Shown here one piece after another: positions 2,573-64,000 of a stretch of DNA of 64,000 bases (its first letter is position 1; every line of letters starts with the position of its first letter). Source of the DNA: Streptosporangium sp. NBC_01755 (GTDB lineage: Bacteria; Actinomycetota; Actinomycetes; Streptosporangiales; Streptosporangiaceae); assembly GCF_035917995.1 (NCBI RefSeq), contig NZ_CP109131.1, positions 4,092,001 to 4,156,000 on the forward strand. Reading direction: 5' to 3'. The translations under genes and the position numbers were made by a program. The notes beneath the pieces are model-generated. The model had not been told where the DNA came from, did no database searches, and was given only the letters and a program-made list of their open reading frames with translations.

Positions 2573-4653
2573 CAGGGCCCGTCCTCCTGCCCGGCGCGCT
2601 GTCGTTCGTCGCGGAACGACGCGAGCACGCCGTTCGGGACGGCTCCCCGGACTCCCCTGCTCTCCGGGGTGGTCTCCGCGACGGGGCCGGAGGTGGTGCC
2701 CCGCTCGGCGGGTACGGTCTGGCGTACCCGTTTGGGGAGGCCGTTGCCAGGGGGAGGCCTTTCGAGCTCGACCGAGTAGGTGAACCGGGGATCGAGCGGT
2801 TCGACCACCAGCTCGCTCGGGAGCAGCACGATCGCCGTGGTGCCGCCGAAGGGGGAGGGGCGCAGGGAGACGCGGATGCCGTGCCGGATGGCGAGCTGCG
2901 CGACGACGAACAGGCCGAGCCGGTCACTGTCGGCCAGGTCGAACTCCGGCGGGTCGGCCAGCCGCACGTTGAGCCGGGCCATCTCCTCGGGGGAGATGCC
3001 GAGCCCCCGGTCCTCGACCTCGATGGCGTAGCCCCTGGCGACCATCTCGCCGTTGACGTGTACGGAGGTGTGCGGTGGAGAGAAGACGGTGGCGTTCTCG
3101 ACCAGCTCGGCGACCAGGTGGATCACGTCGGTGACGACCGCGCCGATCACGGATGGGCCGTGCGGCACGCCGATGGTCACGCGCGGGTAGTCCTCGATCT
3201 CCTCGACCGCGGCGCGGACCACGTCGTAGATCGTGACCGGTGTCCGCCATCCCCGTCCCGGGACGGCACCGGACAGGATGATCAGGCCTTCGGAGTGGCG
3301 GCGCATCCGGGTGGTCAGGTGGTCCAGGCCGAACAGATCCTCAAGGGTCTCCGGGTCGCGGGCCCGCCCTTCCATGGTCTCCAGCATGGCCAGCTGCCGG
3401 TGCAGCAGGGACTGGCTGCGCCTGGCCAGGCTCACGAAGACCTTGTTGACGCCCTTGCGTATCTCGGCCTGGCCGATGGCGGCCTCGATGGCGGTTCGTT
3501 GTACGGAGGAGAACGCCTTGCTGACCCTGGCGACCTCGGTGGTGCTGCCGACATTGATCTCGGGCGCCTCGGAGCGGACCTCCTCGCCTCGGCGGAGCCG
3601 CCGGACCACGTCAGGCAGCCGCTTGTCGGCCAGGTCGAGGGCCGCCCGCTGGAGGTCGACGAGCTCGCCGCCCAGCCGTCGGCCGAACCGTACCGAGACG
3701 AAGACGGACAGCCCGACCGTGACCAGGCCGAGTCCGCCGGCGAGGCCGATCTGAACCAGGATGTCCCTGGCGAGCGGTATGGACCGCTCGCTGATGCGTT
3801 CGTTGACGTCCCCGGCGCGGCTGTCGAAGCCGTCGGAGAGCCGGGTGGCGACCTCGGACCAGGAGGGGTCCGGGATCGCCGCCGTGGCGACGGCGTTCTC
3901 GATCCCCTCGAACGAGGAGTAGTCGGGGGAGTCGTGCAGCGGGGTGTAGAGGGCCCGGAACTCGGCGTCGAACTGGTCGAAGCCCAGGGAGTAGAGGAGC
4001 CTGCGGCCGGTGACCAGTTCGCTGAACCTGGCACGTTCCGCGGGGCTCATGGCCCCCTCGATCACGGCTCCGGATATCAGGGCGGCCTGCTGGCTGAGGA
4101 TCTCGCGGCTCCGCCCGACCATGACGACGGCCCGTGCCTGGTCGGTCAGCTCGATGTCGCTGGATATCCGGATCTTTTCATAGGTATCAAAGGCGGCCGA
4201 GACGACCCCGCTGTAGGCGTCGAGGATCTGCAGCCGGGTGTCGGTGCGGGTGTCGACCCCGCTGCGGATCTCGGTGAGCCGGTCCATCGCACCGAAGAGC
4301 CGGCCCAGGCGGTCCCAGGTGTCGGGGGTGATGCTGGAACGGGTTTCGGTGGTCAATCGCTCCAACTCGGCTCGCGCGCCGTTCGTACGGATGCGCTGGG
4401 CGTCCAGTTCCGTACGCGAGACGTCGATGTCTCCCAGGACGGACAGGGACAGCAGCCGCTCGTGCTGGAGCGCGGTGGTCAGCTTCCTGGTGGGCAGGAC
4501 CACGTATTCGTAGCCGTCATGGATCTTGAGGAGTTCCTGGCCGCTCTGGACCGTCAGGCTGGCGGCAAACCCCCAAATAACTACGAGGGATGCGATTGGC
4601 GCCAAGAGCAAGGTAAAAATCTTCACCCTGATTGAGTATTTTCGGCCAGCCAT
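2572..4653 (-). CDS. Nitrate/nitrite-sensor-type histidine kinase (conservon CvnA-like)
   Basis: From ATG 4653 the product is 693 residues; an in-frame GTG at 4665 adds four. A membrane segment lies near residues 12-32 and a second around 300-322, enclosing an extracytoplasmic helical NIT-like domain. HAMP-like sequence follows (FGRRLGGELVDLQRAALDLA). The dimerisation region carries LFGLDHLTTRMRRHSEGL. The ATPase domain shows the N box (LVAELVENATVFSPP) and a G1 box (VEDRGLGIS), then SDRLGLFVVAQLAIRHGI. A Pro/Glu-rich cytoplasmic tail completes it. In characterised conservons this protein scaffolds the other Cvn proteins at the membrane; the stimulus is unknown. Only the DUF742 partner is present here. 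Confidence 0.88.
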   Translation of the reverse strand: MAGRKYSIRVKIFTLLLAPIASLVVIWGFAASLTVQSGQELLKIHDGYEYVVLPTRKLTTALQHERLLSLSVLGDIDVSRTELDAQRIRTNGARAELERLTTETRSSITPDTWDRLGRLFGAMDRLTEIRSGVDTRTDTRLQILDAYSGVVSAAFDTYEKIRISSDIELTDQARAVVMVGRSREILSQQAALISGAVIEGAMSPAERARFSELVTGRRLLYSLGFDQFDAEFRALYTPLHDSPDYSSFEGIENAVATAAIPDPSWSEVATRLSDGFDSRAGDVNERISERSIPLARDILVQIGLAGGLGLVTVGLSVFVSVRFGRRLGGELVDLQRAALDLADKRLPDVVRRLRRGEEVRSEAPEINVGSTTEVARVSKAFSSVQRTAIEAAIGQAEIRKGVNKVFVSLARRSQSLLHRQLAMLETMEGRARDPETLEDLFGLDHLTTRMRRHSEGLIILSGAVPGRGWRTPVTIYDVVRAAVEEIEDYPRVTIGVPHGPSVIGAVVTDVIHLVAELVENATVFSPPHTSVHVNGEMVARGYAIEVEDRGLGISPEEMARLNVRLADPPEFDLADSDRLGLFVVAQLAIRHGIRVSLRPSPFGGTTAIVLLPSELVVEPLDPRFTYSVELERPPPGNGLPKRVRQTVPAERGTTSGPVAETTPESRGVRGAVPNGVLASFRDERQRAGQEDGP

Positions 4654-57984: not shown

Positions 57985-58066
57985 GGCAGGTTGCCCGAGT
58001 GGTCAAAGGGAGCGGTCTGTAAAACCGTCGGCTCAGCCTACGCAGGTTCAAGTCCTGCACCTGCCA
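57985..58066 (+). tRNA. tRNA-Tyr (GTA anticodon)
   Basis: A 7-bp acceptor stem (GGCAGGT with ACCTGCC) with discriminator A is followed by a D arm (CCC...GGG), an anticodon loop CTGTAAA giving GTA, a long variable arm typical of bacterial tRNA-Tyr, and a T arm GCAGG-TTCAAGT-CCTGC. CCA is not encoded. A terminator hairpin follows. Confidence 0.95.
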
Positions 58067-58078
58067 CACCAGCAGAAA

Positions 58079-60835: not shown

Positions 60836-61312
60836 CTAAGGTTCCGTTTTCTTTAACGAGATATTTCCGGATCGGAGTATGTCTAGCATGGGTGGTTTGG
60901 CGCCTATCTTTCGAGCGCCATCATAGATGGACTCCCGGATAAACGGATAAAGTATCGGCACCGCTATTTTCTCGGCAAATTCTTGCATAAGGTCGTCGGA
61001 AAAATCGATCGCTTCATTGTCCAGGCTTTCATTGTCGTCATCTTCTTTAATCGAGAAGACGGCTACGGTGTCAGCAATGAGTATTGCTTGAGGCGTCTTT
61101 ATAGTCATGCGACCCCGCACAGAAATGCTTTTTTCGTCTACGGTTTGCATCACTTGAAGGTCATTAATGATGTTGATAGGCGGCGCCTCCTTATCGCCTA
61201 TTCCGGAATTCCAGCGTCGGCTCGACGATTCGAAGAAAAAAACACGGCGTAACTCTAGGAGAGCTTCGAGCTCTTCTAGAGTTACCGATGAAGTTTCTCG
61301 CTCAACGCTCAT
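60836..61312 (-). CDS. SecB-like chaperone protein
   Basis: The 158-residue product is AT-richer than surrounding genes. Its C-terminal half (AEKIAVPILYPFIRESIYDG, then ARKIGAKPPMLDIL) matches the conserved end of SecB and SecB-like proteins, where P-x-x-x-P-x-x-R-E precedes a region ending in a short hydrophobic P-containing strand. The N-terminal half has alternating strands (SISVRGRMTIKT, ILIADTVAVFSIKEDD) as in the SecB sheet. It overlaps the HTH gene by four bases. By analogy with Rv1957 it may protect an antitoxin; general secretion is less likely in an actinomycete. Confidence 0.6.
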   Translation of the reverse strand: MSVERETSSVTLEELEALLELRRVFFFESSSRRWNSGIGDKEAPPINIINDLQVMQTVDEKSISVRGRMTIKTPQAILIADTVAVFSIKEDDDNESLDNEAIDFSDDLMQEFAEKIAVPILYPFIRESIYDGARKIGAKPPMLDILRSGNISLKKTEP

Positions 61313-61962
61313 CGCACCGAAACCTTATAGTGCGAAGCCTCTGTGTGGTCCCAGCCTTTCATGGCATTAGTCATGAAAGCGCCATTGTCGTCTGCCTCGC
61401 TTACTGTGAGGTCGGCTTTGTATACAGCTATAACGCCAACCTGTCGAGTTCGGCGCCAGCGATCCATTGAAAGCTTTGTCTTGTGCTGCAAGTTGCAGTT
61501 TAGTGCAGAGTCAATGTCTGCCATTTCGTTACGACTTGGTCTATTGACTTCGTCGTTTCGGCCGATCTGTTCTAGCCATTTATTAACTTCTGTCCACAGC
61601 CATACCTGGGTACGCCCTGCTGTGCCTTCAGATGGAGGAAAAGGCAAAGCTTCGCTATGCCGCTTTCCGGTTATCCATTGATGGATATTCTGGCGTGATA
61701 ATCCCAGTCGTTCTGCGATTTCTGGAACGCCAACCAGATCGCGATGTAGGCGAAGTACCCGAAGGCTCGGAACAGATATTGTCGCCTCGCGAGCCGCCTT
61801 CATTGCGGCAGCTAAGGCATCTGTGCCTTCAGCGGCAATATCAAGGAGGTCAACGCCTCCACCGCGGAACAACATGGCGTCGAGCTCTCGATCAAGAGTC
61901 TCCACAACATCGATGTCATCGACGGACACGCCTTCGACTACGAATCGGAACTCGTACTCCAT
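61309..61962 (-). CDS. HTH DNA-binding protein with C-terminal extension (antitoxin-like)
   Basis: The 217-residue product follows a strong GGGAGGAAGG site. Residues 1-60 form a small alpha/beta domain (EYEFRFVVEGVSVDDIDVVE). A HTH lies at about 78-100 (VGVPEIAERLGLSRQNIHQW), followed by TQVWLWTEVNKWLEQIG as in AlpA/MerR-like excision or regulatory proteins. The last 75 residues have no recognised domain and include YKADLTVSEADDNGAFMTN. It sits between a small HicA-like gene and a SecB-like gene, so it may be the antitoxin and repressor of a three-gene module; the extension could be where a chaperone binds. Confidence 0.65.
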   Translation of the reverse strand: MEYEFRFVVEGVSVDDIDVVETLDRELDAMLFRGGGVDLLDIAAEGTDALAAAMKAAREATISVPSLRVLRLHRDLVGVPEIAERLGLSRQNIHQWITGKRHSEALPFPPSEGTAGRTQVWLWTEVNKWLEQIGRNDEVNRPSRNEMADIDSALNCNLQHKTKLSMDRWRRTRQVGVIAVYKADLTVSEADDNGAFMTNAMKGWDHTEASHYKVSVR

Positions 61963-62023
61963 AACCTTCCTCCCGCCTGTACCTGAGCTTCGCAGGGGTG
62001 TTGACGTTCGTCAACGCCTTCTA

Positions 62024-62299
62024 TCATTCTTTCCGATCCAGGCCGGTCAAGCTTCTGCGAGGGTCCTCGGGATCCTTTGGGCACAGCTGGGCTGCCGTGC
62101 GGATGCCTCGGACTCTGCGCTCGGGTTTGGGGACGGTGCTGCCGACAGGGATGGTCGTGCACTTGCCTGGACACGGGCAGTAGAGCCGGAAGCCGTGACC
62201 TTCTTTGCGAAGTAACCACCCCAAACTCACCCAATAGGCAAGTTCCTTGCGAATGTCCTTATTTGAGTGTTCTGACGGGTCCACTGCTTTGCCCGTCAT
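62024..62299 (-). CDS. Small basic protein, possible HicA-like toxin
   Basis: From ATG 62299 the product is 91 residues: HSNKDIRKELAYWVSLGWLL, then RKEGHGFRLYCPCPGKCTTI, PVGSTVPKPERRVRGIRTAA and QLCPKDPED. The order helix, GW-x-x-x-x-x-x-G-H strand, TIPVG strand, then P-x-x-R...IR helix is like the double-stranded-RNA-binding fold of HicA toxins, in which the His after Gly is catalytic. C-P-C-P-G-K-C may bind zinc. The match is by pattern only. It is first gene of the minus-strand cassette, 61 bp before the HTH gene. Confidence 0.5.
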   Translation of the reverse strand: MTGKAVDPSEHSNKDIRKELAYWVSLGWLLRKEGHGFRLYCPCPGKCTTIPVGSTVPKPERRVRGIRTAAQLCPKDPEDPRRSLTGLDRKE

Positions 62300-62666
62300 C
62301 ACTCCACCTCTCTACGTAACCGATCACCTAGCTTGCCATGCTCACGACACTGCTGAGGGCGAAAGTTTGGGGCATAGTTCACCGAAACGAGGGGAAGAAT
62401 CTGCGGATGCTGAGAACCTCCTGGTGAGGGCTGATCGTCTGCGCAGTGCTTAGCTGGATTCGACAGAAACTTGAGGATGGCGCAGGTACTGCCCCCTGCT
62501 CGGCAGGGCATCGATGTCTCCTTTGGATGTCATCGAAGCTCGCGTCAGATTGAAGCCGAGCTGACGGGTCAGCGCGGGCGTTGCGGGACATGCGCGGGAT
62601 ATGAAACCCCGGAATGCCGAAGGGGCTCCGGGAGTGTGTCCCAGAGCCCCACAGCAGAGGTGATCT
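62300..62666. other. Region upstream of the HTH/SecB-like cassette
   Basis: No gene is supportable. It must hold the cassette promoter on the minus strand; a GAGAGGTGGAG ribosome-binding region lies at its left edge. The right part contains the hairpin at 62622-62650. Confidence 0.5.
62622..62650 (-). terminator. Hairpin beyond the second integrase remnant
   Basis: GGGGCTC pairs with GAGCCCC and GGGA with TCCC around a GTGTG loop, with one C/A mismatch between the two stems. It lies 17 bp past the stop of the minus-strand integrase remnant. Confidence 0.7.
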
Positions 62667-62810
62667 TCACGCGGCCAGCGCGTCATCAATCCTCCGGTTG
62701 ACCGTCTCCTCCTGGCCGTCGATGCACTTCGCGTAGACGCGGAGGAGGACATCCACGCCGTGACCGGCCCGCCTTGCCACCTCGGGAGCGGGAACCTCGG
62801 CATTGAGGGC
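62667..62810 (-). pseudogene. Second tyrosine integrase C-terminal remnant
   Basis: Forty-seven codons read ALNAEVPAPEVARRAGHGVD then VLLRVYAKCIDGQEE and end IDDALAA. This aligns with the remnant at 58190-58375 (WLNAGVPAPQVAEWAGHSVD, VLLRVYAKCIHGQQG), including the G-H motif and nucleophile Tyr. Upstream the similarity stops abruptly. The two remnants are related but not identical, so they come from two different integration events or an old duplication. Confidence 0.75.
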
Positions 62811-63115
62811 TCTTTGACTTTGAGGGGGATGTTCACCCTCATGCCGCTGGCACGTGATCAAGGGCGGCTGCTGCCCTCGCTGCCCTGCTACGGGGAGATC
62901 CCTGATGCCTCGGTAGGTTGGGGCTGAGGCACGAAGTCCCAGACTTTCGATCGGCCCCCAGCCACGTATGGGCTCAGCCGCCGTCGGGCGATCGTGAGGG
63001 CGATGGCTGGGGGGAGAGATGACCAATTCTGGCCACTTTTTGTGATGGGCTAATATCGCACAGCGATGACTGTTTGACAGTGATCAACTTCCCCGCCTCA
63101 CTCTACGGAGGAAGG
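62811..63115. other. Intergenic region before the lectin/dehydrogenase chimera
   Basis: About 300 bp with no recognisable gene. GGAGGAAGG at 63107-63115 is the ribosome-binding site of the following ORF. Confidence 0.5.
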
Positions 63116-63808
63116 ATGGCAAAGTTCACTGCCACGCTGGTGGCTCGTCACAGCGACAAGTTGGCGTCGGTCGTCGCAGAAGGCACCGACAATGGCGCCC
63201 AGGCAATCCAGTGGACCAACAAGGGCAAACCCAACCAGGAGTGGAATCTGGAGGCGACCAGCGCCGGTTACTACGTCGTCCGCGCCATTCACAGCGGTAA
63301 GGCTCCGTCGGTCCTCGGCGAAGGACTCCAGGACGGCGCCGAGGCGGTCCAGCGGGACTATGTGAACAAGCTCAACCAGGAAGCGAATGACAAGCGACAG
63401 AGCAGGGAGCATGTCCGAAATATGAGAGCGTTCGCCAAGTTGGAATCCGGCGTCGACAGTATTGAACTGGCAGAGGTAGCAGTCCCGCAGATCGACGATG
63501 ATGAGCTGCTTGTGCGCGTCAAGGCCGTCGGCGTCGGCATTCACGACTCCTACTTCCTGCCGGGTGACGCGAAGTACCCGTTTCCGATCGGAATCGAGGC
63601 AGCCGGTGTCGTCGAGCAGGTCGGCAGCAGAGTCTCTGGTCACCGGCCAGGTGACCGCATTGCCTTCGTCAGTTCGATGCAGCCGAAGGGCGGAACCTGG
63701 GCGGAGTACGCCGCGGTCAAGGCCGGCTCCCTCATCGTGCCGGTCCCCACTGGCCTGGACTTCGTTGAAGCGGCGGCCGTCCCCGTTGCGGGTACTGAGC
63801 CGATCGTA
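63116..63808 (+). pseudogene. Ricin-type lectin fragment fused to truncated zinc-type alcohol dehydrogenase
   Basis: One frame joins two broken genes. Codons from ATG 63116 (GGAGGAAGG upstream) encode a ricin-B lectin part (FTATLVARHSDKLASVVAEG, KGKPNQEWNLEATSAGYYVV) with one QxW motif, ending at KLNQE where a second QxW is expected. From ATG 63422 the frame is an alcohol dehydrogenase/quinone reductase N-domain (MRAFAKLESGVDSIELAEVA, FPIGIEAAGVVEQVGSRVSG, GGTWAEYAAVKAGSLI). It stops matching after VAGTEPIVS, where an IS630-type element begins. Neither half is complete. Confidence 0.7.
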
Positions 63809-63869
63809 AGTTTTGGTACGTGTTGGGTAGCGGTGGGAGATCGAGTTCCGGCAGGCGCATGCTGGGGGT

Positions 63870-64000
63870 ATGGCGAGAAAAGGTCGCAGAGCGACGTTCG
63901 AGGAGAAGGTTTTCGCCCTCCGGTTGCTGGAGGAGGGCATGTCACCGGATCGGGTGGCCGAGGCGCTGGGGGTGGGCCGTGAGTCGGTGTTTCGGTGGAA
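63870..64000 (+). CDS. IS630-type transposase, 5' part
   Basis: An ATG at 63870 opens MARKGRRATFEEKVFALRLL, EEGMSPDRVAEALGVGRESV and FRWK, an N-terminal HTH typical of IS630-family transposases, and runs off the right edge. About 60 bp of presumed IS left end (from GTAAGTTTTGGTAC at about 63807) separates it from the interrupted dehydrogenase. The catalytic DDE part is outside the window. Confidence 0.75.
   Translation, partial: MARKGRRATFEEKVFALRLLEEGMSPDRVAEALGVGRESVFRW

Follow-up and report, generated by a model that had tools for sequence, protein, structure and literature searches.

In the 64,000-nucleotide (nt) stretch of Streptosporangium sp. NBC_01755 analyzed here (contig NZ_CP109131.1, positions 4,092,001 to 4,156,000; hereafter the window), three minus-strand genes encode, in order, products of 91, 217 and 158 amino acids (aa), designated P0001, P0002 and P0003. 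A sequence-only reading of the window had proposed that they form a toxin-antitoxin-chaperone (TAC) module in a new combination of components. The frames were recovered where that reading had placed them, the last two sharing 4 bases (ATGA), and their spacing is consistent with a single operon. The cassette comprises the following features:

62024..62299, minus strand: HicA-like putative toxin gene, P0001 (91 aa counted from the ATG; a start at the GTG at 62302 would give 92 aa)
62001..62014, minus strand: palindrome TTGACGAACGTCAA, candidate operator in the gap separating the toxin gene from the antitoxin gene, 52 nt ahead of the P0002 start
61309..61962, minus strand: putative antitoxin gene, P0002 (217 aa; PADLOC PDC-M06B), with predicted ferredoxin-like domain (residues 1-74) and MerR/BldC-like winged helix-turn-helix (HTH; residues 75-135)
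61312..61491, minus strand: antitoxin C-terminal tail, residues 158-217, candidate chaperone-addiction (ChAD) region, with very low predicted local distance difference test (pLDDT) scores
60836..61312, minus strand: SecB-like chaperone gene, P0003 (158 aa), with a 4-nt overlap with the antitoxin gene

We think it likely that the cassette is a TAC module of new composition, and what appears to be new, judged from sequence, is the presence of a PDC-M06-type pair as the toxin-antitoxin part of a TAC. The observations behind this are a conserved gene order, the homology of the SecB-like protein to Rv1957, the HicA-like predicted fold and profile match of the small protein, and an association between the antitoxin tail and SecB; from these we infer toxicity, chaperone dependence and phage defense.

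The chaperone is most readily placed by its family profile. A profile built from eight P0003 relatives had as its top PDB match the Mycobacterium tuberculosis TAC chaperone Rv1957 (5mtw; E 2.9e-5), and when extended with other TAC-type chaperones it retained 5mtw as the sole PDB match at E ≤1 (E 1.9e-15, positions 14-136). On this profile evidence, P0003 belongs with the SecB-like chaperones of TAC systems, as the sequence-only reading had supposed. Family models weigh the other way: Pfam SecB did not match P0003 at E 1, nor did any other Pfam family, and the NCBIfam SecB match was weak (E 0.0066). Across a 15-sequence chaperone alignment the only invariant residues were P123 and R126, within a [YF]P[FY].R segment. 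No PADLOC profile matched P0003 at E 0.1; the SecB proteins of locus L072 and of the Gordonia phages Horus and Suerte match PD-T4-9_C, weakly.

P0001 is predicted to adopt a dsRBD-like alpha-beta-beta-beta-alpha fold resembling HicA. In HicA toxins, the conserved histidine after beta-1 (GSH motif) has a catalytic role. An hhalign comparison using 18 of 30 HicA loci (12 were dropped for contig edges or broken or over-long frames) set GW..GH of P0001 onto GW..GSH of HicA, aligning His35 with the GSH motif; this histidine is conserved in 31/32 members of the small-protein family. P0001 also has cysteines in a CPC motif and at C73. PADLOC profile PDC-M06A matched P0001 at E 0.0012 and all 10 members of the small-protein alignment, P0001 included, at E ≤0.01, strongly for the relatives and weakly for P0001 itself. 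Several results count against the assignment. Pfam PF07927 (HicA_toxin) did not match P0001 at E 1 and matched 0/7 family members examined, HH-suite gave the HicA match a probability of only 21%, the Foldseek HicA match had an E of 1.2, and the VIA Z score was below 5, a range the tool rates as common. Two phage toxin-like proteins, moreover, keep the GH and lack the cysteines. A PDB search with a sequence profile of the small protein recovered no HicA chain at E 10, and Pfam HicA had no above-cut-off match anywhere in the host genome. P0001 thus lies outside Pfam HicA but is HicA-like in its predicted fold and profile match, at modest scores, which upholds the earlier pattern-based suggestion at that strength. 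A related small family of KHFKLYCPC type (L055, L057, L059-L064, L066) has no GH histidine, and no HTH partner was found nearby.

Behind its two predicted domains, P0002 carries the 60-residue tail, which is probably disordered given its very low pLDDT and which includes W204 (-14 from the end) and Y212 (-6). P0002 matches PADLOC profile PDC-M06B (E 8.7e-16), whose 174 positions stop about where the tail starts. An identity as HicB was considered and set aside: Pfam HicB did not match, the N-terminal domain is ferredoxin-like by prediction, and no HicB stood among the 50 VIA matches listed, an absence that does not itself prove P0002 is not a HicB. The claim that the HTH protein is no classic HicB or HigA is supported to the extent that it has no recognizable HicB match and that its family differs from that of HigA1.

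To assess conservation, the open frames of fetched loci were searched with a profile for each of the three proteins, each place being counted once. A SecB-like gene lies behind an antitoxin of the P0002 family at 13 distinct loci: four of Streptosporangiaceae type (the window, G007, N. parvosata and N. candida), seven on plasmids (six of Rhodococcus, L003, L004, L005, L007, L008 and L009, and Pseudarthrobacter defluvii pA, L006) and two in the Gordonia phages Horus (L117) and Agueybana (L120). This count leaves out two more plasmid records matched by P0003 (H42, H46), and the close Nonomuraea and Spongiactinospora sequences are the same as those in genomes G158, G161 and G308. A HicA-like small gene precedes the antitoxin in 12/13 of these loci, so that the trio recurs as a neighborhood in other actinomycetes, their plasmids and their phages, and the 4-nt antitoxin-chaperone overlap recurs in 11/13. 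Since the three frames keep their order in distant genomes, they are not chance frames. A tblastn search with P0003 found eight plasmid records, in all of which the SecB match adjoins the antitoxin match. The three-gene cassette is nevertheless rare: the SecB profile matched 10/341 family genomes, of which four have the gene behind a P0002-type antitoxin (G000, the window's own genome; G007; G158; G161), and 3/396 phylum genomes, G000 counted. By comparison, the small-protein profile matched 40/200 family genomes, and the window's own genome also holds a SecB-less pair (G000:C1:4546101-4546897). Two points temper the conservation argument. The loci are not independent and amount to a few lineages, and G007 (L110) keeps antitoxin, chaperone and palindrome, with no toxin gene found in the 7 kb examined. 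A P0003 scan of genome contigs found no relative, and viral-contig scans with P0001, P0003 and the SecB proteins of L019 and L005 returned nothing useful; the L072 SecB found itself only.

The phage copies lie at L117:2416-3821 (Horus) and L120:3146-4516 (Agueybana), and integrase genes are present in both phages. The toxin-like gene of Agueybana has no annotation; its frame (L120:3146-3436) matches the family profile at E 1.2e-12, and an ATG at 4082, upstream of the annotated SecB start, gives the 4-nt overlap. Directly after this cassette lies a second putative TAC (L120:4629-6112), comprising a 179-aa protein, an XRE-type HTH protein and a very divergent SecB-like protein. A gene annotated as metallo-protease stands directly behind SecB at L117:3882-4304 and L118:3858-4265, the former with a weak IrrE N-terminal-like match just below the Pfam cut-off; its product may process the repressor or an antitoxin. 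Other loci have a different third gene: a 145-aa protein with no Pfam match overlapping the HTH gene (L114:1490-1939, minus strand), or a ParA-like ATPase, at a locus whose antitoxin also has a long tail (L010:3657-5498). The third gene of such loci may be exchangeable. On Rhodococcus plasmids L003 and L007 the cassette adjoins TniQ/TniB/DDE transposition genes, and we take it to be possible cargo of a Tn5053/Tn7-like element.

If the chaperone acts on the antitoxin, the tail is where the two would be expected to meet. Counted from a conserved W[LMA] anchor, a tail is present in 13/13 SecB loci, spanning 69-87 aa in 11 (the phage tails are 66 and 68 aa long), compared with 29-53 aa in 22 of the 26 measured SecB-less relatives that lack an extra domain (the tails of six SecB-less relatives were not measurable). 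After removal of duplicates and of rows above E 1e-15, Trp at -14 occurs in 9/11 antitoxins with SecB versus 0/37 without, and Trp within the last 20 residues in 10/11 versus 3/37 (Fisher 4.5e-7, no true probability because the rows are related). The tail of M. tuberculosis HigA1 contacts its chaperone through W108, R110 and Y114 (PMC5105189, PMC6377645). In a 48-row core tree without phages, all 11 SecB members fall on one side of a 99/98 branch, together with nine long-domain and two SecB-less members. The association is not without exceptions. Long tails occur without SecB in L010 (91 aa), L065 (82 aa), L026 (72 aa) and L029 (66 aa), so the tail alone does not imply SecB; the tail motif was picked after inspection of the sequences; and the Trp at -14, present in 9/13 SecB loci, is missing in four (L005, L006, Horus and Agueybana), the two phages having Tyr at -11 in its place. 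L037, with neither tail nor SecB, nests among SecB members in the core tree.

Nine SecB-less relatives (L039-L045, L070, L071) have 173-177 aa after the anchor, including a different C-terminal domain of about 140 aa, two checked copies of which have no Pfam family above cut-off. A fused SecB was rejected as its identity (hhalign P 0.47 with 7 of the 9 carriers), and the domain is possibly another sensor. No SecB gene was seen behind the L039-L045 antitoxins in the 355-449 nt examined there, and one may lie farther away.

A similar tail end appears on an unrelated antitoxin. The Gordonia phages Suerte, Blueberry and MissRona encode a SecB that shares 43-44% identity with the Horus protein and lies behind an HTH protein, of XRE type (HTH_3) in Suerte. 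The phage cassettes sit between repressor and integrase genes, so annotated in Suerte and MissRona; the repressor position holds an unannotated gene in Horus and a "transcriptional regulator" in Agueybana. The antitoxins of Blueberry (ending WASIGASGSFALAA) and R. opacus (ending WAGDSFQSSYALAV), the latter P0002-type, have a similar C-terminal end with W at -14 and Y/F near -5. In BLASTP this stretch alone aligns between them (7/14, E 0.20), their chaperones being 38% identical (E 8e-33), and 17/20000 shuffles of the Blueberry tail scored as well, for a motif picked after inspection. A single 12-row group of the SecB tree (83/88), with its inner order not resolved, contains chaperones accompanying either kind of antitoxin; the tree labels were assigned in this analysis, L017 and L020 having no identified antitoxin. 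That an XRE antitoxin unrelated to P0002, encoded ahead of a related SecB, has such an end suggests that chaperone dependence has been naturally transferred between antitoxins, in parallel with the laboratory grafting of a chaperone-addiction tail (PMC5105189). Convergence is also a possible origin of the shared end, and some comparisons speak against transfer: 532/20000 shuffles did as well for Suerte against R. opacus and 4770/20000 for R. opacus against the window, which represent the two main clades, and the deep branches of the SecB tree are weak, with long branches meeting.

Regulation may involve the palindrome. The sequence TTGACGNNCGTCAA, with 0-2 mismatches, precedes the antitoxin start by 46-57 nt in the window, G007, G161, G158, G308 and L070, and by 91-127 nt in L039-L045 and L071. 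The palindrome is a candidate operator, appears to overlap a TTGAC -35-like box, and may also hold a promoter for antitoxin and chaperone. Weighing against this role, it was not found in the Rhodococcus loci, the phage loci or most other two-gene loci, and 123/2000 random 406-nt stretches of the same loci contain it at 0-2 mismatches, true sites included. A sigma-70 scan gave one promoter-like match versus 1.1 expected, and the DNA ahead of the toxin gene in four relatives had diverged too far for an alignment to reveal an operator there.

The cassette differs from its surroundings in composition. At 52.0% G+C over 1464 bases (47% for the SecB-like gene alone), compared with 64-75% in 54 of the 64 one-kb blocks, it is the AT-richest stretch of its size within the window, bearing out the earlier remark that it is AT-richer than the rest; the minimum over 1464-base windows (step 50), 51.8%, falls in one overlapping the cassette. 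It is flanked by two mobility-related features:

62670..62843, minus strand: integrase C-terminal remnant upstream of the cassette, a mobility trace with similarity to plasmid integrases
59048..60454, plus strand: IS1380-family transposase gene downstream of the cassette (E 2.8e-85), apparently full-length

The sequence-only reading had placed the genes between two integrase remnants. The upstream one holds, its 45 residues showing 69% identity to one plasmid gene and 49% to another, both annotated as site-specific integrase; the other side is the transposase gene, and no second remnant was found in the frames scanned, a part of all frames in the region. A tRNA-Tyr gene (57985-58067) was rejected as attachment site, as its last 14-30 nt have no exact repeat in 70.5 kb. 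Further along, possibly through rearrangement, a frame at 63074-63982 combines a ricin-B-lectin-like domain with an N-terminal segment of an alcohol dehydrogenase. The host genome is a single contig of 8.15 Mb.

TACs are known with HigBA, HicAB and MqsRA pairs (PMC5105189), and their SecBs are diverse, with signs of horizontal transfer (PMC4257090). M. tuberculosis Rv1955-Rv1956-Rv1957 (HigB1-HigA1-SecB-TA) has the same order of toxin, DNA-binding antitoxin with C-terminal extension, and SecB-like chaperone, the last being what the P0003 family profile finds; its toxin, however, is HigB rather than HicA-like and its antitoxin is of another family. By description, the HicAB-type Mmet-TAC of Methylomonas methanica (PMC5105189) shares a HicA-class toxin, antitoxin tail and SecB-like chaperone, but its antitoxin is HicB, whereas here HicB has no match and the toxin lies outside Pfam HicA; a 2009 survey held HicA-HicB to be strictly a unique pair (PMC2701414). 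MerR-like antitoxins described in that survey combine a small N-terminal domain with a truncated MerR-like HTH, as here, but partner PIN toxins. PDC-M06 is a phage defense candidate in PADLOC-DB 2.0. The adjacent P0001 and P0002 match its A and B profiles, the comparison resting on profiles, with no SecB match under that name; SecB and the antitoxin tail are the additions here. The name was not found in the literature searched (subscription papers and preprints lay outside its scope). In CmdTAC/PD-T4-9 a SecB-like chaperone is likewise present and senses phage capsid (PMC11618068), but the toxin is an mRNA ADP-ribosyltransferase, unlike the 91-aa HicA-like P0001, which has no PD-T4-9 match. 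A SecB-like protein was noted in Gordonia phage Wrigley, with no toxins mentioned in that context in the available text (PMC9670969), and the accessible parts of PMC5105189 and PMC10440598 do not describe a HicA-like toxin, P0002-type antitoxin and SecB in combination.

We propose that P0001 would act as a HicA-like RNA-cutting toxin and that P0002 would bind it and repress the cassette through the palindrome. The disordered tail would destabilize P0002 unless bound by P0003, probably through the aromatic anchors W204 and Y212. Were, for instance, a phage structural protein (as in CmdTAC) or unfolded exported proteins to draw off the chaperone, P0002 would be lost and the toxin would halt growth. 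The same trio in other soil bacteria, on plasmids and in two phages suggests a portable anti-phage or stress switch. More tentatively, and with somewhat less than even confidence, the SecB-like chaperone and a short tail (W ... Y/F-A-L-A) may be a portable addiction unit that moved among unrelated antitoxins of actinobacteria and temperate phages, making the PDC-M06 pair, HicA-like and non-HicB, a chaperone-sensed, prophage-carried anti-phage switch.

Other explanations fit parts of these data. The small protein might be no nuclease toxin, serving instead as an accessory RNA- or metal-binding subunit while the MerR-like HTH regulator and chaperone control something else; given the Rv1955-Rv1957-like gene order, the HicA-like profile and fold of P0001 and its nearly invariant histidine, we consider this unlikely. 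The SecB-like gene could also be an unrelated passenger beside a two-gene toxin-antitoxin or PDC-M06 pair, not acting on the antitoxin. SecB-less pairs are indeed common (the 40/200 family genomes above), one of them in the window's own genome, but the consistent adjacency on plasmids, the 4-nt overlap in 11/13 loci, the co-occurrence of tail and SecB, and the similar tail end on an unrelated antitoxin before a related SecB make a passenger quite unlikely. Least probable, and in our view very unlikely, is that the cassette is decaying and no longer functional: its low G+C, the integrase remnant and transposase gene flanking it, and a Spongiactinospora relative (L037/L069) with neither tail nor SecB would suit such a history, but the three frames are intact and the overlap, palindrome and conserved residues are retained.

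As a TAC module, the cassette would extend what laboratory grafting showed about how a toxin-antitoxin pair gains chaperone dependence, since nature seemingly did so in a separate antitoxin family. Because this family has natural versions with and without the chaperone, one of each in the window's genome, chaperone addiction is directly testable in it. Gordonia phages, moreover, carry copies in their lysogeny region, which would tie the cassette to prophage-borne defense.
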